From NCBI RefSeq assembly GCF_021654775.1, contig NZ_AP025343.1, forward strand, positions 3,563,501-3,627,500: a DNA stretch of 64,000 bases. The letters are read 5' to 3'. The DNA comes from Paenibacillus azoreducens (GTDB lineage: Bacteria; Bacillota; Bacilli; Paenibacillales; Paenibacillaceae). Of the stretch, positions 10,879 through 20,038 are shown in pieces. Each line of letters starts with the position of its first letter. Within the stretch, counting starts at the first letter, position 1. A program made the position numbers and the translations under genes. The notes under the pieces were generated by a model. That model saw only the letters and a program-made list of their open reading frames with translations, did no database searches and was not told the origin of the DNA.

Positions 10879-11079
10879 TTAGTTATTATTATTCGTAACT
10901 TGATTAACGATGTTTTGAGTTGCTTTCTGAGTTTTATTCGCGACATTTTTCGCGGCATCCGTCGTCGATTTAATCGCATTTTGAGCTGCATTCGTTGCGG
11001 TGTTTATAGCATTTCCTATGGCATTGGTATTTGTTTGTCCTATATTTTGTTTATTATTATTCTGGGTTCGTTGTATGCC
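10879..11079 (-). pseudogene. Asn/Thr/Ala-rich small protein, 5'-truncated
   Basis: The minus-strand frame encodes about 66 residues built from short amphipathic units (NAINTATNAAQNAIKSTTDA and similar) and ends in four asparagines. An in-frame stop lies just upstream of the first residue and there is no start codon, so the 5' end has been lost. The composition recalls small acidic or stress-type helical repeat proteins, but the family is not identified. Confidence 0.35.
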
Positions 11080-11109
11080 CGGTCATGATCGGTTTCGGCC
11101 TGCTTCGGT

Positions 11110-11345
11110 CTATGCGGTCAAAAAACGATCCAACCGCTCGATGATCCGCTCATGCGCCTGCAAAAATACTCCATGTCCGGCGTCCGGCACCATTAAGAGC
11201 TGGGCATCCGGGATGCGTTGAGCCAAAGTTTCTGCGTGGGCGGGGGTGAAAATCCAGTCCGCTTCTCCGTGAATGATCAGTGTTGGAACAGAGATGGCAG
11301 GCAAACGATCGTTAGAATCGAAGCTTTGATAGGCAGCGTCATGAA
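11110..11345 (-). pseudogene. Alpha/beta hydrolase, C-terminal remnant
   Basis: The frame encodes the last 75 or so residues of an alpha/beta hydrolase: the acid-bearing strand VPTLIIHGEADWIFTP and the catalytic histidine in VPDAGHGVF. The nucleophile region and everything upstream are missing; similarity stops near 11345. It lies just downstream of the TOMM enzyme operon, so it could once have belonged to that locus, but nothing proves this. Confidence 0.6.
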
Positions 11346-11737
11346 TGGATGAGGAAGATAGATGCAATCAATACACTCAAAAGCTTCATCTTCAAAAGCG
11401 CTGGATTTGGAAGTGCCTCCCCATAGTTCTTTTTTATTTCTGGAGAAGAATACTGTTTATCCAGGAAAGTATAAAAATCATCCTCGTCAATATTCATATA
11501 TGTAAACTCATTCCGACAGTTCTCAACAGTTCAGAAATTGTCTTTATTTTTTCTGCATACCTACCTATAAATAGATCATAGAGAAAACCATTGGCAAAAA
11601 GCCAATGGGTAAGGTTTAGACTTTTATATGAGTGTTATAAGGTTGCTGATAAGGCTATGCAAAAATCTGCATCGTCCATTTAACTTCCTGACGACATGAC
11701 CGTTTGCGTCAATGTCGTTAGCAATGATTTTTTTATT
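11346..11737. other. Intergenic region after the TOMM operon
   Basis: No convincing gene was seen here. The only clear structure is the terminator at 11588-11608. A plus-strand frame at 11345-11581 lacks a ribosome binding site and recognisable motifs. Confidence 0.5.
11588..11608 (-). terminator. Intrinsic terminator of the TOMM enzyme operon
   Basis: A perfect eight-base stem CCATTGGC / GCCAATGG with an A5 loop, followed on the minus strand by TTTTCTC. It lies 130 bases downstream of the SagB-type gene, the last gene of the operon. Confidence 0.7.
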
Positions 11738-13330
11738 TTAACGGCTCAAACTACCCGCCAACCGCAAACGTTGACGATAGGGACCGACCGGTATAAAAAT
11801 CAGCCCCGTTTCATCCCGAGAAGCCGTCCGATAAAGCGCATCGCTGGAATTGGCGTCAAACCCGAGAAGCGGACGTCCTCCCATCCCGAGGGCGGATGCC
11901 GCCAGCAATAATCGGTGCACGAGCATCCCTGCTTCCATTTGTTGTATGCGGTATCCCCGCTTGCCGAGCTGCGATTGAAAGAAACTCCTCTTCCCAGCCA
12001 CATGAAAGCTGAGCGGCACTTGAAACAAATTGATATTGGGCAGCGACATTCCCTCCTGCATCCGTTGCCGGTGATCTCCAAGACTAACCGGCTGCAGCGC
12101 ATGCGCGGCGTCATCGTACCGATAAGCGCCATCCGGAATGTCATCTACTCCATAGAAACAGCCATATAGGCATACACGCGGTTCCGGCCGCTCATGCGGG
12201 CCATCCAGGTCATTGCGATACGAGAAGGAAACCGTCGCTTCCCGAAGCAGAGCTGCAAGCCGGGAAAGAGCGATCGGCTTCAAGATAAATTCCGTCTCGG
12301 GCGAGAACCGGTTGCGGCAAACCGTCGCCAAATCATACGACAAGCGCTCTACAGGCGGCAGAGGCAGTGCGAGCGCTTGATCCGGGATTGCTTGTTCATC
12401 CCTTACGAACTCTCGAAACGATCGCGCCGAATCCAGTCGGGACGCTTCGCTCATTCGAAGCAGCAACGGATAATCTGCGATTCTCCGTGACCTGACATAG
12501 TGATCATGCCTGACAGTCGACAACTCCCGGCACAGCTCGGAGGCGGAAACCGTGTCCTCATCCTCGTTCCCGCTTTCCATCCACCGGATCACCGGATCAG
12601 TCGATAACGGGATAACCGCATACACACTCTCCTCTTGTTCTGATAGTCCGAGCAGATGATTGACGGCTTGATCGAGAAATTGAAAATGCACGCTAGACGA
12701 AAATCCGAATCGTTTCGCGATTTCAAGCAGCTGTCCGATCAAAATGCCAGCATCTAGTCCCTGCAGCCGGTAGGCAAAATTATTGTATTTGTAAAAATTT
12801 TTCCAGTAAACCGTAGATACGAACGCGGCTGCGAAGCAACCGTTCGTGTCGCGGCGATTCCCGAGCGACCTCGCTAAATAATCATCGAAATTTCCTTCGC
12901 GCAGCAACGCCAACCGATGATGCGCCGCATCATAATGGTATATGCCGGCAGGCAACTCACCAAGCTTCAGATAGAGATACAGTTCACTCGGATATAGCCC
13001 TCCTCCGGAAGGAACGAAGCGCCGGCACATCTGCAAGACGCCTACCGATTCTTTCGATGGTTCCCGTTCCATGACGGATTGGGTCAATTGCGTAAGCCCG
13101 AATGCATAGTAAAGGAAATGTCCGATATCGCGAAGGATAGGCACGCCGGTCGTATCCCTGCCTTCGAGCGTTGCCGGCACTTCCCTGGATAGCGGAAACA
13201 TTGGCAAACCGCGATAAAGCTTGTAAGGAAGTGGTGCGTCATCCCAATCCGTCTCCCAATCCAAGGGCTTGACCTTATCCGGATCATATTGCAAACGGTG
13301 AAGAAAAACGTCCAAATTCATAAGACTCAT
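11738..13330 (-). CDS. SagB-type FMN dehydrogenase, TOMM biosynthesis
   Basis: Nitroreductase-fold flavoenzyme of about 530 aa with two SagB-like halves. In thiazole/oxazole-modified peptide pathways SagB oxidises azolines, made by the YcaO cyclodehydratase, to aromatic azoles. The first half has the family motif RRFVPSGGGLYPSELYLYL (about residues 105-125 of the longer frame) and IYHYDAAHHRL; the second half repeats the plan in degenerate form (GAYRYDDAAHALQPV) and ends GLIFIPVG. AAGGAGG six bases before ATG fixes the start at 13330, seven codons inside the longest frame. It is the last gene of the operon, 42 bases after the YcaO gene. Which half binds FMN cannot be settled from sequence alone. 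Confidence 0.88.
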   Translation of the reverse strand: MSLMNLDVFLHRLQYDPDKVKPLDWETDWDDAPLPYKLYRGLPMFPLSREVPATLEGRDTTGVPILRDIGHFLYYAFGLTQLTQSVMEREPSKESVGVLQMCRRFVPSGGGLYPSELYLYLKLGELPAGIYHYDAAHHRLALLREGNFDDYLARSLGNRRDTNGCFAAAFVSTVYWKNFYKYNNFAYRLQGLDAGILIGQLLEIAKRFGFSSSVHFQFLDQAVNHLLGLSEQEESVYAVIPLSTDPVIRWMESGNEDEDTVSASELCRELSTVRHDHYVRSRRIADYPLLLRMSEASRLDSARSFREFVRDEQAIPDQALALPLPPVERLSYDLATVCRNRFSPETEFILKPIALSRLAALLREATVSFSYRNDLDGPHERPEPRVCLYGCFYGVDDIPDGAYRYDDAAHALQPVSLGDHRQRMQEGMSLPNINLFQVPLSFHVAGKRSFFQSQLGKRGYRIQQMEAGMLVHRLLLAASALGMGGRPLLGFDANSSDALYRTASRDETGLIFIPVGPYRQRLRLAGSLSR

Positions 13331-13372
13331 CGCTTTCCTCCTTGTCTTCAACTGCGCCGCCCATAGCCGTGA

Positions 13373-15322
13373 TTATGGGAACGGGTGCGGGTATGGATTA
13401 AGCTGCTCGGGAGACAAGGGCTTCAGCGAATAAGACAGCTCTGCAGGGACCCTGAGCACTCTATCCAGTCCCGTCAAACGGATGAGATGATGCCCGAACG
13501 TCATCGGCAGCATGCCGGGAATGAGCACTTTCACGCAATGGAGTCCGTTGCGACGCGTCTCCGGGGTTGACTGGTCGATCACGATCACTTCAAGATTCAA
13601 TTGGCGAAAAACATGCAGCATGCCCTTCAGATCATCGGTCAGATCTGCGTTCCAGTCCCTCGGTTCAAACGCTTCGTCGAACGTTTGCATCGGACGATCG
13701 TCATTCAGCAGGAAATCGAGCCGTTCCTCCGCTTGTTTCAACCCGTACAGCATGGAATGGTCCTCCATCTGACGGACCTGGTACGGATCGAGAAGCATCC
13801 GTTCATACTGCTGACGGTTCTCCTCGAATTTCTCGCTGACCGTGAGCAGCATGCCCGCCACCTCGTGGATCGCGCTCTTGGCCGCGCGGATCGGATCCGG
13901 ATGGGCGCCCGCCGCGCAGATGAGATTCACACCCCGCTCTTTCTTGTTTTTCGCGAGCGCCCACACGCTCGGTATGCCGTGCTCCATTGTCGATTTATAC
14001 AAATGCACGTCATAGCCCGCCAAGGCCTCTATACGATCAATCATCCATCTCATTTCCCGGTCCTGTACCGAACGGTGGTCCAGACGCGGCAGGGGCAGCC
14101 GCGCATACCAGGTCATGAGGAAGGAGTCGCGTTCCACCACTTCCAGCATCCCGTAGAAAATCGCTTCCTCCAGACTGCCGCCCAGCGCGCAGCCATTGGA
14201 CGTTTCGTAGACGAATCCGTGTCCGCAGCCCGCACTGTAATAAGCCAGCAGTTCCGGTACGAGAATCGGACGCTGCTGCAGGAACGAATAACCCCATACC
14301 CAATCGATCGGCCGTTCGGGATCGAATGGTTTGAACGGGAAGCCGGAGCGTTCATACTGTTCCTTCGCATGGACGCCTACGCGGAGTGGATCGAGCGCCT
14401 GGTCTTGCACATTGATGAAACTGTCATGAACGACGGATCGTTTGCCGCGGGGCGACAGACCGCAATAACGCTCCAGTCCCTCCAGAATGGCCGTCATTTC
14501 GCTATCCGCATAGGAGTGGGTCCGACCTGCGCAAGCCTCGTCTCCGCCAAACAAGGGCAAATTGATGCTCGCATCGGCAAAAGGAGACACAAGGTCAATC
14601 ATTTTCCCGTTCAGTAAACCGGTCCTGGCATCGAGGTATTCTTTGGCCAAAACATCCTTCAGCTCATCCATCGAACGGCTGCGATACGTTTCGACGCTGA
14701 TTTTCAGGCTTGGCTGCAGCGCAACGCGGGCCGTCTCCGCATCGTCTTCCGGCAATCGCCCGCAGATCGGACATAGCGGATCGGGCAGGAAGAAGTGCAA
14801 TGAGCTTTTCATCGTACGCAGATTGATCAAGTACATCCGGCCTTCAATCTCCGGCTGAATGCCCAACAGCACCTTAACGGCTTCTGCCGCGACAACGTGC
14901 GCCACCTGCAATAATCCCGTACGCGACGCCCATGCGTCCCGGGCGATTCCCCCAAGCGACGCCAGCTTTTGCTGAAGGTCCCACGATTCCCTTCGGTCGC
15001 TTCCAGCCAGCAGGAGCCGGATATCCGCGCATTGCGAGCACCCTTGCCCCTCCGGGCGAACCAGCGGACCGACAATCCCCTCACCGAATGCAACAAAACC
15101 GCGCAGCCAGGGCGTTCCCGACTGTCGGAACCGAGCCTCCGCAGCAGCATGAACGGAAGGATCCCATGCATCGTTCAACATCAGCGCCAAGTCTCCTGTT
15201 GTCGCCTCTCCAGATTCAATGCTCTTCTGCCGGATCAGCCGATAGCGGTCATCCGCAGACAATAACTTGCTTACCAAATCCGCGAGCTGTCCTTCCCCGA
15301 TGACCGTCACGATCGCGTTCAA
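13373..15322 (-). CDS. YcaO cyclodehydratase with fused leader-binding region (SagCD-like)
   Basis: 649 aa enzyme that would cyclise Cys (or Ser/Thr) of the precursor to azolines with ATP. Residues 1-190 form a TOMM leader-peptide-binding/E1-like region with a four-cysteine zinc site (CSQC about 95, CPIC about 184). Residues about 200-640 are the YcaO domain, with ATP/Mg motifs SYADSEMTAILEGLERYCG (about 270) and SNGCALGGSLEEA...EVVERDSF (about 375-400). The C terminus is Pro-rich, PYPHPFP, as in azoline-forming YcaO proteins. The start is TTG at 15322, whose TTGA overlaps the stop of the preceding gene; GAGGAGG lies seven bases upstream. Family SagD/TIGR03604-like. Confidence 0.93.
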   Translation of the reverse strand: MNAIVTVIGEGQLADLVSKLLSADDRYRLIRQKSIESGEATTGDLALMLNDAWDPSVHAAAEARFRQSGTPWLRGFVAFGEGIVGPLVRPEGQGCSQCADIRLLLAGSDRRESWDLQQKLASLGGIARDAWASRTGLLQVAHVVAAEAVKVLLGIQPEIEGRMYLINLRTMKSSLHFFLPDPLCPICGRLPEDDAETARVALQPSLKISVETYRSRSMDELKDVLAKEYLDARTGLLNGKMIDLVSPFADASINLPLFGGDEACAGRTHSYADSEMTAILEGLERYCGLSPRGKRSVVHDSFINVQDQALDPLRVGVHAKEQYERSGFPFKPFDPERPIDWVWGYSFLQQRPILVPELLAYYSAGCGHGFVYETSNGCALGGSLEEAIFYGMLEVVERDSFLMTWYARLPLPRLDHRSVQDREMRWMIDRIEALAGYDVHLYKSTMEHGIPSVWALAKNKKERGVNLICAAGAHPDPIRAAKSAIHEVAGMLLTVSEKFEENRQQYERMLLDPYQVRQMEDHSMLYGLKQAEERLDFLLNDDRPMQTFDEAFEPRDWNADLTDDLKGMLHVFRQLNLEVIVIDQSTPETRRNGLHCVKVLIPGMLPMTFGHHLIRLTGLDRVLRVPAELSYSLKPLSPEQLNPYPHPFP

Positions 15323-17277
15323 AGCGTTTCCTCCTCTCGCAGCGATACGCCAAACACGCCTGCCAGTTCTTCCTGCATAAACGGTTCTGTCGACAGATCA
15401 ACGACCGCGATCCTCTTACGGTTCGATTGCAGGATCTGCTGGACGGATTGCAGTGTCATGCCGTATTCCGACTGATCAAAGCTGTGAATCGTCAGGTTCT
15501 GCGGCAAGGCATCTTCCACCTTGACCGAAGAGCGCTCCAGGATTTGGCCTTGGATGTCCATCGCATCGTTTTGGGTCCTCATCAGCGCCTGTCGAAGCGC
15601 TTCTCGTAGCGCCATCGTGCGGTTAACTCCGACCCCGCCGTACCAGTACCCGTTAGTACCGACCCAGACGACCGGAAAACCCGCTGCTTCTTGACCCAGA
15701 CCGATTACCGGGGCGTCCCGCATCGTACTCAATACGCGCAAGTAATAGCGTGTGATACCATCATCAACCTCGCTGAGCTCGATTCGATAAATGGAGGGCA
15801 TGCTGGATTCGGAACGGCTCTTCAGCTCCTCGAACAGACATTTCTGCAGTCCGCGGAGGACCGCTTCCGCTACCGTCTCTCCCGCTCCAATCCCTACATA
15901 TTCATGTGGCTGAGACTCGGTCGGACTTGTGGTATCCGGCTGCGCAGGACTGGCCGCCTTCAGAACCCCGGCCAGTCGCGACACGTACGCCTCGATGCCA
16001 GCCAAGCCCGCTTCCTTCCTGGCTTCATGATGCGTCATTCCCGAACAGATGATCTGCGGCAGCAGCTCGGCGGGGCCTTCCGATAACGGGTCAACTGCCT
16101 GGACGCGACACTGTGAGAGCGGAAGCTGTTTCGAGTCCCCTTCCTCCCAGCAGTGAAGAATACCGGTCTCCGCCGAAGTCAAGCGATTGAAATACGAGAG
16201 GAGACGCTCCGTCTCCTGTTTCTCTGTATGCCGATCGACTGGAAGTTCGAACGGGTCCGTAGGCTCAGCCGGACGAAGACCTCTGACCAGCGGATGGGGA
16301 AGGAACGAATGCCACTCGCCTTCTAACGTCTCCGGATTCAACAGGAACAGCTTTCCATTCAATTCGGAAACCGTCGCCCCCGAAACGGTCTTAAACCATT
16401 CGAATACGACCACATTCGCGAGCATGGCTTCCGACGTAGTAGAGACGGCAGTCGGCCGATCCGCATCGCCAAGGGCGGTTCGGTGTATCCTGCGCCATGC
16501 GGATTCGAAGCAGACGTCCGAATCCGGGTGCACCAACGGCCCTGCTATGCCCAACTGTCGGAAGTAGATGGCAGGCAGCAGCAGCTTCTTCGCGTCCCTG
16601 CAGGCCGCATGCAGTGCTCTAAGCTCTCCGGGATCGTCATCCTGAGCGACGTAGAGAACGGAATCCGCCAGCCGCACGACCTCCGGCCAATCGGGGAAGC
16701 CGTCATTCGACGGAAAGATCTCCTCGACCTCGATCTCGTGGTCCGATAGACGCGCGGTCGCCGTCAGCTCGGAGATCCGCTGGCGATCCGTGGTCGCCCG
16801 GTTCATGATCAGCATACGAAACCGAGGCAATCCAGATTCCAATAAAGCCGCAACGAGCGAGACAAATATCGGACCGGAACCGACGGCAATCGGATTAGCC
16901 TGGCGATAGGCTTGAAAGCAGTGAGCGCCCGAACCGCCAAAGCTGTCCAGAAATTCGATCTGTGCGGCATACTTCCGTTCGATCGCTTCCGGGAGGCTGT
17001 GTGGGCGGTCTTGGCTGGTATCCCGGACAAAGCCGTTATTGAGCAGTACTTCCGCTATTTCATAAACCCGTACCCTGTGCGGTTCTGGCAGCCCGTCCGT
17101 CAGATCCGCCATGGAATAATCCCCACTCCACATGGGCATCAATTTTTCGATCCACAGATCGACCATGTCACCTTCCATTCGGAACGAACCCGTATTGTTG
17201 CGAAAATAGACGCCTCCATTCGAGTCGGGGAGAAAGAACGTATCCCCTTTCACTTTCAGACGCATAGAAGGGTTCAA
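15319..17277 (-). CDS. ThiF-like thiazole-containing bacteriocin maturation protein
   Basis: 652 aa protein resembling the 'ocin_ThiF_like' family (TIGR03693), which accompanies YcaO enzymes in heterocycloanthracin-type clusters and is thought to act with the cyclodehydratase in precursor recognition. The N-terminal 90 residues look like a peptide-clasp (RRE-like) segment (LKVKGDTFFLPDSNGGVYFR), then a Rossmann-type E1-like region (IAVGSGPIFVSLVAALLESG) and a long C-terminal domain. No catalytic Cys pair is seen. The start is TTG at 17277, with GGAGG nine bases upstream; a later ATG is too far from it. First gene of the enzyme operon, coupled to YcaO by a TTGA overlap. Confidence 0.9.
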   Translation of the reverse strand: MNPSMRLKVKGDTFFLPDSNGGVYFRNNTGSFRMEGDMVDLWIEKLMPMWSGDYSMADLTDGLPEPHRVRVYEIAEVLLNNGFVRDTSQDRPHSLPEAIERKYAAQIEFLDSFGGSGAHCFQAYRQANPIAVGSGPIFVSLVAALLESGLPRFRMLIMNRATTDRQRISELTATARLSDHEIEVEEIFPSNDGFPDWPEVVRLADSVLYVAQDDDPGELRALHAACRDAKKLLLPAIYFRQLGIAGPLVHPDSDVCFESAWRRIHRTALGDADRPTAVSTTSEAMLANVVVFEWFKTVSGATVSELNGKLFLLNPETLEGEWHSFLPHPLVRGLRPAEPTDPFELPVDRHTEKQETERLLSYFNRLTSAETGILHCWEEGDSKQLPLSQCRVQAVDPLSEGPAELLPQIICSGMTHHEARKEAGLAGIEAYVSRLAGVLKAASPAQPDTTSPTESQPHEYVGIGAGETVAEAVLRGLQKCLFEELKSRSESSMPSIYRIELSEVDDGITRYYLRVLSTMRDAPVIGLGQEAAGFPVVWVGTNGYWYGGVGVNRTMALREALRQALMRTQNDAMDIQGQILERSSVKVEDALPQNLTIHSFDQSEYGMTLQSVQQILQSNRKRIAVVDLSTEPFMQEELAGVFGVSLREEETL

Positions 17278-17433
17278 GTTTTTATTCCTCCTTAAAGTTT
17301 TGCCGGACGCAAAACCGTTTCGTAGGTAAAAACTAAATTTTTGCCGGTGAAAACCGCATTGTACGCAGGCTTTCGGTTTTCCCTCATTTTTAAGTTATGT
17401 AGAGCGTTTTGTCCGTCATGCCTAAAAGTGCGT

Positions 17434-17599
17434 GTTCAAAAAGGTCGGTTTTCAGCACCGAGAAGGTTGGATGAAGCTAGGGACAGAGGAGCGGAGCGTA
17501 CGTTAGGTACGTGAGCACCGGAAGTCCCGGGTGAATTCAAGATTCGATGCCGAGTCACTTCTTGATTCGCTTCGTGATCAAAAGCGGACTTTTTGAACA
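17434..17599. mobile_element. MITE-like element with terminal inverted repeats
   Basis: A 166-bp non-coding block bounded by GTTCAAAAAGGTCGGTTTT on the left and the near-exact reverse complement AAAAGCGGACTTTTTGAAC on the right (16 of 19 positions pair). The homology with an internally deleted copy at 47675-47708 extends outward to AAGTGCGT on the left and AACCTCT on the right. No transposase is present. It is inserted between the bacteriocin precursor and its maturation genes. Confidence 0.7.
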
Positions 17600-17611
17600 A
17601 CCTCTAAAACT

Positions 17612-17654
17612 AAAAAAGGAACAGCCCCTGCAAGACGAGACATTTGCAGGGGCA
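17612..17654 (-). terminator. Terminator directly after the TOMM precursor gene
   Basis: GCCCCTGCAA and TTGCAGGGGC form a perfect ten-base stem with a ten-base loop, followed on the minus strand by TTCCTTTTTTAG. It lies 38 bases after the precursor stop, so most precursor transcripts should end here. Any read-through would feed the enzyme operon. Confidence 0.85.
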
Positions 17655-17691
17655 TACCGTTTTGCGGATCGCCAAGCAAGCTTTTCGGTGC

Positions 17692-17943
17692 TCAACGGCA
17701 GCGTGCGCAGCTTCCGCAACGTGCGCAGCCACTGCAGCTGGCGCAGTTGAAGCAGCTACTGCAGCGGACACAGTTGCTGCATGAACAAAACCCGCCGCAA
17801 AAGCCGGCGCAAAAAAAGCAAATACCAACACATAAACGGGGATCCACCTGATAGTACTGATTTTGCCCCGACGTAGGTGTCATCCCCGTCGAATTGAACT
17901 GGCCGACATTCAAGTTTTGCAGATCCTTCTGGAAATCGTTCAT
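17692..17943 (-). CDS. Heterocycloanthracin/sonorensin-type bacteriocin precursor
   Basis: 83-residue TOMM precursor. Residues 1-36 are a hydrophilic leader (MNDFQKDLQNLNVGQF, then a QYYQVDP stretch just before the first Cys). Residues 37-83 are the core, with 15 cysteines: the first five at 38, 42, 45, 49 and 53 are irregularly spaced in Gly/Phe-rich sequence, and from Cys55 to Cys82 there is a Cys at every third position (ten in a row). The residues between are small or polar (Ser, Asn, Ala, Gly, Arg). This is the hallmark of the CXX-repeat bacteriocin family, whose cysteines become thiazoles. GGAGGG precedes the ATG at 17943. The neighbouring ThiF-like, YcaO and SagB genes support the call strongly. 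Confidence 0.93.
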   Translation of the reverse strand: MNDFQKDLQNLNVGQFNSTGMTPTSGQNQYYQVDPRLCVGICFFCAGFCGGFCSCSNCVRCSSCFNCASCSGCARCGSCARCR

Positions 17944-18206
17944 TTTATACCCTCCGAATCATTCATTTCCCTGCATGGGACAATTGTTATACGAGAATGT
18001 TTAGATCTGGATCCGACCGGCATACAAGCCCATCCCCCCTTCTCGACTAGATAATTTATGAAATTAATTCCACTAGTGTTCCTATGACATCCGCCTACCA
18101 AATAAAAAAGAACCCAGCAGACTTCTTCTGGTAGCCGGATTGAACGTAACCGCCCGTGGAACTTGATCCTGAGGGCTATAGTGTTCCCCCTACTAGTTAT
18201 GACCAT
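17944..18206. other. Upstream region of the precursor gene, no gene
   Basis: About 260 bases that must contain the promoter of the precursor gene (minus strand). I see no clear -35/-10 pair. A minus-strand frame at 17940-18206 has no recognisable motif and is treated as chance. Confidence 0.4.
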
Positions 18207-18575
18207 ATATCTATACCGATCCGTTTTACTCTTTGCCGTTATATAAGCTTGTTTACAACGATTCAGTGATCACTACGCATCATTGGGAATGGGGAAGCCT
18301 TAAGATAAAGGACGAAATCGGAAGCAGGATGCTTTCAGAGCTTCTCTACAACGTCCCGCCGCTTTATCATATTGATCAGGACAGCTGGAAAAAGAACAAG
18401 AAATTAATTACGGGTAATCTGAAGGTGTAAGTCCACCTCCTACGGCGATCAACTGCGGATTACCGTCAATTTTTCAGGCAAAGACTTTGCGTATAAGCAG
18501 CAAACAATTCCAGCCAAATCGGCCGTGATCGAAGACGGCGCCAAGGTGACGACCTTCCGTACACCGAATATCTAA
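18207..18575 (+). pseudogene. Glycosidase-like gene, 3' remnant (paralog of 23537-25855)
   Basis: Plus-strand remnant of a second copy of the 772-residue secreted protein encoded at 23537. It starts near YTDPFYSLPLYKLVYNDSV (full gene: YLDPAYSLPLFKLVYNNSV), runs through HHWEWGSLKIKDE to NLKV, then hits a stop. After a deletion of roughly 27 codons the last 40 residues follow in another frame (ITVNFSGKDF ... IPAKSAVIEDG), ending at a stop at 18573-18575. Identity to the intact gene is high but clearly not recent. The first 600 codons are gone. Confidence 0.8.
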
Positions 18576-18630
18576 AATGCAGCTTGAATTCTCGTTCAGG
18601 AAAGTGTAAGTCGTTTTACTCCCAAAAAAA

Positions 18631-18665
18631 CAGCCCTTATTCTGCTTCATGTAGAATAAGGGCTG
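18631..18665 (-). terminator. Terminator overlapping the end of the kinase gene
   Basis: CAGCCCTTATTCT and AGAATAAGGGCTG form a perfect 13-base stem, followed on the minus strand by seven T residues. The kinase stop codon (18647-18649) lies within the hairpin, so the last codons of the gene double as the ascending arm of the terminator. Confidence 0.85.
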
Positions 18666-20038
18666 TTTTCTTTGAAATAGATGTAAAAGCGGATCGTTTG
18701 ATCCTTTGTCTCTATATGGCAGCGAAAGCCGTGCCGTTCCAGAACCGTTTTGACAATCGCAAGCCCGAGGCCTGTGCCAGACACCGCTTTATGCCGCGAG
18801 CTTTCCTCCACGTAAAAGGGCTCCCACAGCTGGGATGCATCGGCGATCTCTCCCGCAAAGTGGTTGCTCATCGCAAATACGATCTCCTCATCCTGCTTCC
18901 CGAAATGCACGTCAATCCGTTCGCCTGCCGCATATTTTACCGCATTGCCGAGCAGGTTATGAAACACCATCCGGATTTTGTCCGGATCCGCTTCAATCAG
19001 AGGATTCCCTGGTAGCTCATCGCGAATCACGAACTGCAAATGCCTGGACTTCAGCTCAATGCCGAATTTTTCTGCACATTCATGGAACAAATCCTTCACG
19101 GCAACAGGCTTAAGTTCAAGCTCGTCCCTTTCGATTTTCGAAAAATTCAAAAACTCGTCAATGAGCCTAGCCATGTTCTCATTCTGGCGCAAAATCGTAG
19201 CCGCATAACTGCCGTCGTCAAGCCCGTCTTGAATCCCTTCGGCATAAGCCTGAATGAGTGAAACCGGCGTTTTCAGCTCATGCGTCATATCTGACATAAA
19301 CCGCTTTAAGCTCACGTTTTTTCTGGATAAATCCGCGTGCGCAGCGCTCAGCTTGTCGCTCATGGCGTTGATACTCTCCGCCAGCTCTCCGATTTCATCC
19401 CGGGTATCGACTCTGGCTTTTCGGAAACGAAGCTCCGATATGTCCTTCGCCACCTGCCCTAGTTCTTTCAGCGGTTTGGTCATCCGATATGACAAAAGCC
19501 AGACCACCGACACGATAATCAGCACCGAACAAAGCGCCAGGATCAAAATGAATTCATTGATCATCCGGATCGTATCGCTGATATAAGCCATCGAAAGCCC
19601 GATCAGGACGATGGTTTCGCCCTTCGGGATAAAACTTGCGTAAAAGCTGGATTTGAGCTTGCCTTGATCGTATATTATATTGACCCTGGTACCTGCTTTA
19701 ACCTTCAACAGCGATTCGTCCGTAATCCAGAACTTGTTCAGCGTCACTCTCTTTGTCGCGAGCTGCTGTTTGAACGATTCATTCAGATCATTTTCCGACT
19801 TCCGCAAATTGTCATACACAATCGTCACGCGGTATTGCTGCTCAAGCTGCGGGATCGCAACTGCCCAGTTAGCTTCCTGAAGGGCGGAAATCGTTTTCAC
19901 GGCTTCCCCGAGCTGTTCTTTCGTTTTGTATATATAATATTTCGGCATAAACAGGTTCGCCAGAAGTACGAACATGACGAAAATAAGCAGGACGGCAACC
20001 GTTATGCTTGTAAACAGTTTGCGTCCCAGCTTATTCAT
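18647..20038 (-). CDS. Sensor histidine kinase (OmpR-partner type)
   Basis: Membrane kinase of 463 aa. It has a first membrane helix at about residues 10-32, an extracellular segment of about 130 residues, a second helix near 165-185, then HAMP, HisKA with SDMTHELKTPVSLIQAYAEG (phospho-His), and HATPase with N-box VFHNLLGNAVKYA and GTGLGLAIVK. The ligand is unknown. A start at 20038 is preferred because GGAGG lies six bases upstream and it overlaps the regulator stop by eight bases; the longest frame starts eight codons earlier. It forms an operon with the OmpR-type gene. Confidence 0.88.
   Translation of the reverse strand: MNKLGRKLFTSITVAVLLIFVMFVLLANLFMPKYYIYKTKEQLGEAVKTISALQEANWAVAIPQLEQQYRVTIVYDNLRKSENDLNESFKQQLATKRVTLNKFWITDESLLKVKAGTRVNIIYDQGKLKSSFYASFIPKGETIVLIGLSMAYISDTIRMINEFILILALCSVLIIVSVVWLLSYRMTKPLKELGQVAKDISELRFRKARVDTRDEIGELAESINAMSDKLSAAHADLSRKNVSLKRFMSDMTHELKTPVSLIQAYAEGIQDGLDDGSYAATILRQNENMARLIDEFLNFSKIERDELELKPVAVKDLFHECAEKFGIELKSRHLQFVIRDELPGNPLIEADPDKIRMVFHNLLGNAVKYAAGERIDVHFGKQDEEIVFAMSNHFAGEIADASQLWEPFYVEESSRHKAVSGTGLGLAIVKTVLERHGFRCHIETKDQTIRFYIYFKENSPYST

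Follow-up and report, generated by a model that had tools for sequence, protein, structure and literature searches.

How does a gene cluster that appears equipped to build a thiazole-bearing peptide manage with no gene to export the product, remove its leader or protect the producer? This question is raised by a four-gene cassette on the minus strand (17943-11738) of a 64,000-nucleotide stretch of the Paenibacillus azoreducens genome (NZ_AP025343.1, 3,563,501 to 3,627,500; hereafter the window), which encodes, in transcription order, a precursor peptide, an F protein, a fused C-D protein and a B protein. All four genes are open and score over curated NCBI family cut-offs in a profile search. 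Judged by these matches, the cassette is a complete, minimal heterocycloanthracin set, which bears out an earlier prediction from the DNA letters alone (the original prediction) of a thiazole/oxazole-modified microcin (TOMM) cluster of the heterocycloanthracin/sonorensin type in a single minus-strand locus. We propose, with a probability of about 0.68, that the cassette makes a terminal mother-cell peptide under the control of sigma-K and GerE, with enzymes made by read-through and delivery by lysis or on the spore, which would leave an exporter and an immunity gene dispensable.

The predicted promoter upstream of the precursor

We predict a promoter of the sigma-K class ahead of the precursor gene, an assignment supported by sequence. 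Its -35 element, AAC (18078..18080, minus strand), was located by alignment; the dpaA and yabG genes of relatives have the same spacing. The -10 element, CATAAATTA (18052..18060, minus strand), lies 17 bases past AAC, and its first base is 117 bases ahead of the precursor start. The whole, AAC-N17-CATAAATTA (18080-18052; AAC-N17-CATA 18080-18057), fits mAC-N16/17-CATAnnnT. Further upstream, alignment with relatives places TAGGC (18093..18097, minus strand), the core (TRGGY) of a GerE-type box that, counted as RWWTRGGY, would start 20 bases ahead of the AAC. When the 350 bp before the precursor were aligned for the window locus and 13 others from Paenibacillus, conservation in all 14 ran from the block TGTCATAGGAACACTAG...TTTCATAAATTATC to the gene, and the sequence upstream of this block was common to only some of them. 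The part of Eichenberger 2004 (PMC517825) covered here describes sigma-K promoters with a -35 of 5 bases and a -10 of 10 bases, separated by 14-16; a section of a B. thuringiensis study (PMC4750369) gives CAC-N16-CATATGTTA for the sigK-dependent bclA promoter and puts the start site 120 bp ahead of the open reading frame (ORF). The spacing in the window promoter is 17, as in the dpaA and yabG controls, versus 16 in bclA.

The motif was first noticed in set A, where a precursor was recognised in 33 of 36 loci. Set B came from an order-wide family search after the motif had been seen (29 loci, L045-L073; a leader was recognised in 24), and set C is class-wide (30 loci, L168-L197, with 28 kept after L184 and L197 were dropped for want of a usable start). 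Counts cover 300 bp upstream, and the 359 controls are the upstreams of every ORF of 250 amino acids or more in the 36 loci, found mechanically and including the cassette's own enzymes and chance ORFs. AAC-N16/17-CATA precedes 29/33 precursors in set A, 24/24 in set B and 9/28 in set C (62/85 overall), compared with 8/359 controls; shuffles that preserved single-base composition only gave averages of 1.5, 1.0 and 1.2 for sets A, B and C. The motif reaches relatives with F proteins only 46-60% identical. Precursors of the B. cereus group, the type case, are not knowingly among the loci sampled.

A GerE-type box recurs with it. Of the 53 set A and B upstreams that have AAC-N16/17-CATA, 29 carry a AAATAGGC-like element no more than 40 bases ahead of AAC. 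It starts 20 bases before AAC in 26, 21 in two and 40 in one, and it agrees with RWWTRGGYNNYY, which we take to be the GerE consensus. With a box-to-CATA window set after set C had been seen, TRGGY-N28..36-CATA precedes 66/85 precursors versus 6/359 controls and RWWTRGGY-N28..36-CATA 50/85 versus 1/359, all 50 at 31-33 bases. The -35/-10 spacer of several precursor promoters (e.g., L020, L022 and L177) contains CCTAA or CCCAA, which resembles the reverse complement of TRGGY and is perhaps a second, inverted GerE half-site.

The control genes were dpaA (24 of 30 fetched loci, one per genome) and yabG (22 of 24), presumably sigma-K genes as in B. subtilis, and spoIVA (24 of 24), which we likewise take to be a sigma-E gene. 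In these relatives mAC-N15..18-CATA precedes dpaA in 23/24 and yabG in 22/22, almost always with N17 and at comparable distances upstream; it precedes spoIVA in only 4/24, at 244-278 bases. The P. azoreducens genome itself has sigK (367.9 bits, cut-off 298.65) and a GerE that is 76% identical to the B. subtilis GerE sequence as typed. Among 398 sampled Bacilli genomes, a precursor is found in 67 at E up to 1e-6 (64 of them score over the family cut-off) and dpaA in 242. All 67 precursor carriers also have dpaA (hypergeometric chance 5e-17), which is only supportive because the carriers are related.

Downstream of the precursor, a script found a hairpin followed by a T-run (17612..17653, minus strand), likely a partial terminator. 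The script, a permissive one, reports such a structure in 12/14 Paenibacillus-group loci and 26/33 of set A. Given this terminator-like hairpin, transcription probably reaches F, C-D and B by reading through it.

Several points weigh against the sigma-K/GerE reading. Sets A to C are related sequences with partial overlap, containing 68 distinct promoter cores. The window and most of its Paenibacillus clade have only the TAGGC core of the box, with RWW not kept, and a literature search for the GerE consensus used above gave nothing useful. The strict spacing fails in 19/28 of set C; nine of these 19 fit N14-18 and six more fit only by TRGGY plus CATA, and the N14-18 spacing was, like the N28-36 window, set after set C had been seen. 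N14-18 is also less specific (30/33, 24/24 and 18/28 versus 25/359 controls), and five of the 85 upstreams (L031, L170, L178, L179 and L196) have neither looser form. In up to 400 bp before F, mAC-N15..18-CATA occurs in 6/36 loci, none in the window's clade, so we infer the timing of F, C-D and B here. In four of the six (L030, L032, L033 and L036), all outside that clade, CAC-N15/16-CATAA[TG]GG sits at nearly the same position some 100 bases ahead of F and may be a second sigma-K promoter for the enzymes in other Bacilli. More generally, the timing of expression, the release and the activity of the peptide are things that we only infer.

The cassette and its surroundings

The precursor (17692..17943, minus strand; TIGR03601, 44.4 bits, cut-off 35) is a heterocycloanthracin/sonorensin-type peptide of 83 amino acids. 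It has 15 cysteines, every one past residue 37, and the final ten are at exact three-residue spacing. The leader motif F-[QK]-x-x-L-x-x-L occurs in nearly all of 73 distinct leaders, a count biased upward because the leaders were selected with a similar pattern. Against seven relatives, the ratio of nonsynonymous to synonymous substitution (dN/dS) of the precursor is 0.23-0.98 on few sites, looser than that of the enzymes. Two other Bacilli genomes (G469 and G479) have six TIGR03601 precursor matches each, which suggests that one machinery serves many precursors in them.

The ocin-ThiF-like F protein (15319..17277, minus strand; TIGR03693, 671.7 bits, cut-off 561.9) has an N-terminal leader-binding (RRE) domain, and its residues 9-85 match the solved PbtF domain 8t19 (E 1.1e-06). 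The fused C-D cyclodehydratase (13373..15322, minus strand) joins a truncated E1-like part to YcaO, with TIGR03882 at residues 70-237 (149.4 bits) and TIGR03604 at 266-649 (424.4 bits), both over the cut-off, and it ends in NPYPHPFP. Compared with the TruD, LynD and MusD structures, its match is confined to the YcaO half. Together with the PbtF match of F, this comparison indicates that leader binding probably does not fall to the YcaO protein; Cox 2015 (PMC4603692) takes the same view of the heterocycloanthracin family. The published F-dependent scheme therefore fits, and the leader-binding YcaO that had been proposed for this locus does not. The two-halved SagB dehydrogenase proposed with it stands: the B protein (11738..13351, minus strand) has a duplicated nitroreductase-type domain and matches TIGR03605 (191.6 bits) in two stretches. 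Its true start is likely the ATG at 13330.

The enzymes were also checked for inactivating frameshifts, which the original prediction had named as a possible objection. In 12 of the 35 fetched loci, these 12 being without exception Paenibacillus records, the F protein is 85-92% identical to that of the window. Across the window and these 12 closest relatives C-D is 649 amino acids long, B is 536-542 and F is of equal length, alternative starts aside. Against seven relatives, F has a dN/dS of 0.18-0.28, C-D of 0.16-0.21 and B of 0.19-0.24 (0.16-0.28 for the three). From the matching lengths and low dN/dS we conclude that no frameshift has inactivated the enzymes and that nothing points to decay.

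Both flanking genes are remnants, as had been proposed: an alpha/beta hydrolase (11110-11367, matched only to the C-terminal end of the family) and a GH129 glycosidase (18233-18430, plus strand, matched only at positions 231-291 of 324). Among the ORFs between them we found no exporter-, protease- or immunity-like gene, also in line with the original prediction, and an Rfam scan of 11000-19000 gave nothing at the gathering threshold. The 36 loci (the window and 35 relatives from Paenibacillus, several Bacillaceae genera, Aneurinibacillus, Brevibacillus, Alicyclobacillus and one Thermoactinomycetaceae bin) yield F and B in 36/36, C-D in 35/36 and a recognised precursor in 33/36. Leaving aside the cassette and frames across it, no family of neighbouring ORFs occurs in more than 7/36 loci. 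The commonest Pfam families among 130 of 135 near-neighbour ORFs (five, cut at a contig end or very long, were omitted) are MFS_1 and Abhydrolase_1 with five each, and ABC_tran and BPD_transp_1 have two each. According to Haft 2009 (PMC2674419), transporters, immunity proteins and proteases may co-occur with such clusters and none is required; in Cox 2015 (PMC4603692), the fused cyclodehydratase, F and B are the sole components of all heterocycloanthracin clusters. As far as these sequences tell, the local lack of exporter, protease and immunity genes is the family norm and not a peculiarity of this locus. The earlier suggestion that the missing functions are encoded elsewhere or lost was thus right about the local absence, and some required gene may indeed lie elsewhere; it took the norm of a family for a feature of one locus and overlooked mother-cell expression as a possible reason.

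The genome is 7.32 Mb in one contig, and TIGR03601 (E up to 10) and TIGR03693 (E up to 0.001) each match a single place in it, both inside the cassette. Three further YcaO genes lie elsewhere. Two of them belong to a large thiopeptide-like cluster at ~3.058-3.081 Mb (L043/L044), ~0.5 Mb from the cassette, which also contains pyridine-synthase-like and SagB genes, an ABC ATPase and what looks by eye like a permease (without an NCBIfam match). The third sits in a LanB-like cluster at ~0.87-0.88 Mb (L042:8442-13909), next to a protein that weakly matches pyridine synthase and to a polyprenyl-synthase-like gene, and this is possibly a prenylated TOMM cluster. Nothing links either cluster to the window cassette. 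The genome search for TOMM-linked transporters that the original prediction called for thus produced the ABC ATPase and likely permease, with nothing tying them to the cassette; no search aimed at exporter or protease families was made genome-wide. Three of 72,556 plasmid records have a partial or distant F-protein match. On a 21.6-kb Paenibacillus larvae plasmid (NZ_CP019653.1, 8333-9187), the match covers the first 286 residues only, at 58.7% identity.

Between the hairpin and the F gene lies a dispersed repeat of ~167 bp (17433..17599, no strand assigned) with 26-nt terminal inverted repeats that are 81% complementary. It looks like a miniature inverted-repeat transposable element or similar dispersed element, and is present at no fewer than 40 genomic places (40 of 173 first-look candidates scored). 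At this site it occurs in the window genome only and not in the 13 aligned relatives.

Proposed mother-cell delivery and competing explanations

We predict that the precursor is transcribed in the mother cell at the last sporulation stage, from the sigma-K promoter with its GerE-type box, and that F, C-D and B would be read through the weak terminator from the same promoter. By analogy with published work on relatives, the F protein would bind the precursor leader and hand the precursor to the C-D enzyme, which would convert core cysteines to thiazolines for the B enzyme to oxidise to thiazoles. The peptide would not be exported; lysis of the mother cell may free it, or it may be deposited on the spore. 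An exporter would be unneeded because the mother cell opens itself, and immunity because the mother cell dies and the spore is dormant; a dedicated leader protease is possibly dispensable too. In the covered part of Eichenberger 2004 (PMC517825), the terminal class of mother-cell genes is defined by sigma-K together with GerE, and the mother-cell lysis enzymes cwlC and cwlH are likewise under GerE activation. An excerpt on B. cereus biofilm cells reports a heterocycloanthracin-type gene and sporulation genes going up, with the sporulation genes falling at 72 h, a weak fit to sporulation timing. Somewhat more cautiously, we think it probable that heterocycloanthracins as a family are ribosomally synthesized and post-translationally modified peptides (RiPPs) of sporulation, under sigma-K and GerE and delivered by programmed lysis or on the spore surface.

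The same sigma-K-type promoter evidence would also suit a thiazole peptide that is expressed under sigma-K and GerE and stays on the spore surface, as a coat or crust constituent or a protectant, rather than a released bacteriocin. The two regulators drive the terminal mother-cell class (PMC517825, in part) and, in the section of the B. thuringiensis study covered (PMC4750369), exosporium and basal-layer genes, and the precursor of the product is short and Cys-rich. The loose constraint on the precursor (dN/dS 0.23-0.98, few sites), the description 'strain-variable' in Haft 2009 (PMC2674419) and the antibacterial activity of sonorensin (PMC4544038, in the text available) nevertheless point to antagonism. 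Given the precursor variability and the reported sonorensin activity, we favour a bacteriocin at spore release and hold a spore-surface part to be possible though doubtful. The report of sonorensin as an active bacteriocin of Bacillus sonorensis, in the same part of PMC4544038, fits lysis but also secretion, and so counts against mother-cell delivery as well. An ordinary secreted bacteriocin would be made in stationary phase and would use a general or unlinked transporter and housekeeping leader proteases. ABC transporters are reported in several TOMM families, and the ABC ATPase and likely permease 0.5 Mb away, in the thiopeptide-like cluster, are a further point for secretion and against our proposal. 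This explanation is unlikely, however, given that the 36 loci share no conserved neighbouring transporter family, that the promoter form matches the sporulation genes dpaA and yabG, and that dpaA is present in 67/67 carriers.

The promoter itself could belong to an extracytoplasmic function (ECF) sigma factor, with a GAAC-type -35 and a CG-type -10, instead of sigma-K. Its -35, GGAAC or GTAAC, resembles what we take to be the ECF -35, and AAC-N15..18-CGW precedes 11/33 set A and 11/24 set B precursors, counted without controls. The conserved -10 is CATA and not CG, the spacing and -10 are those of the relatives' dpaA and yabG, and a GerE-type box stands at a near-fixed distance; the CATA -10 and the likeness to the control genes make the ECF assignment the least probable that we considered. 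A decaying, silent cluster that lost its export and immunity genes along with the now fragmentary flanking genes would account for these remnants and for the dispersed repeat that separates precursor and F here but not in 13 relatives. It is very improbable in view of four open genes under purifying selection and a conserved promoter and terminator, and relatives have no export or immunity genes conserved beside the cassette either.

If sigma-K/GerE expression with mother-cell delivery is correct, it would account for the absence of an exporter, leader protease and immunity gene from a cassette that occurs across Bacilli, and the promoter would suggest why the products should be hard to detect in growing cultures. 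It would also add a weapon or spore protectant timed to mother-cell death. Delivery by mother-cell death is otherwise known for the crystal proteins of B. thuringiensis. In the literature on heterocycloanthracins, YcaO proteins or RiPPs with sporulation, in a search with subscription journals mostly outside it, we did not find such a promoter reported (including in the parts of PMC6962202 and PMC10745906 covered).

Comparison with known systems

The cassette is one of hundreds (254 clusters in Cox 2015, PMC4603692). Like the heterocycloanthracins of Haft 2009 (PMC2674419) and Cox 2015, it combines TIGR03601, TIGR03693, a fused truncated C-D YcaO protein and B, and these have no universal exporter, protease or immunity gene. 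The precursor adjoins the enzymes, as in the heterocycloanthracin of B. licheniformis (PMC2674419), and Cox 2015 found a precursor within 10 kb, as in the window, in 14 of 254 clusters; in B. anthracis and B. cereus, by contrast, it is always encoded far from the enzymes (PMC2674419). The covered text of Haft 2009 and Cox 2015 does not mention a spore-stage promoter. Sonorensin of Bacillus sonorensis belongs by name to the same precursor family, in a different organism, and that paper (PMC4544038) uses none of the words export, transporter, leader and immunity.

In the micrococcin system TclI/TclJ/TclN (PMC10634744) and with PbtF, as predicted here, an RRE-bearing F-type protein passes the leader to cyclodehydratase and dehydrogenase. 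Unlike thiopeptide and micrococcin clusters, the window cassette has no pyridine-synthase-like or LanB-like gene among the ORFs between the flanking remnants. The covered passages on the sigma-K/GerE regulon (PMC517825; PMC4750369) mention no RiPP gene, and the promoters that they describe share their anatomy and a long 5' leader with that of the window. Within its known family the window cassette is thus unexceptional; what is new is the reason that we propose for the family's missing genes.

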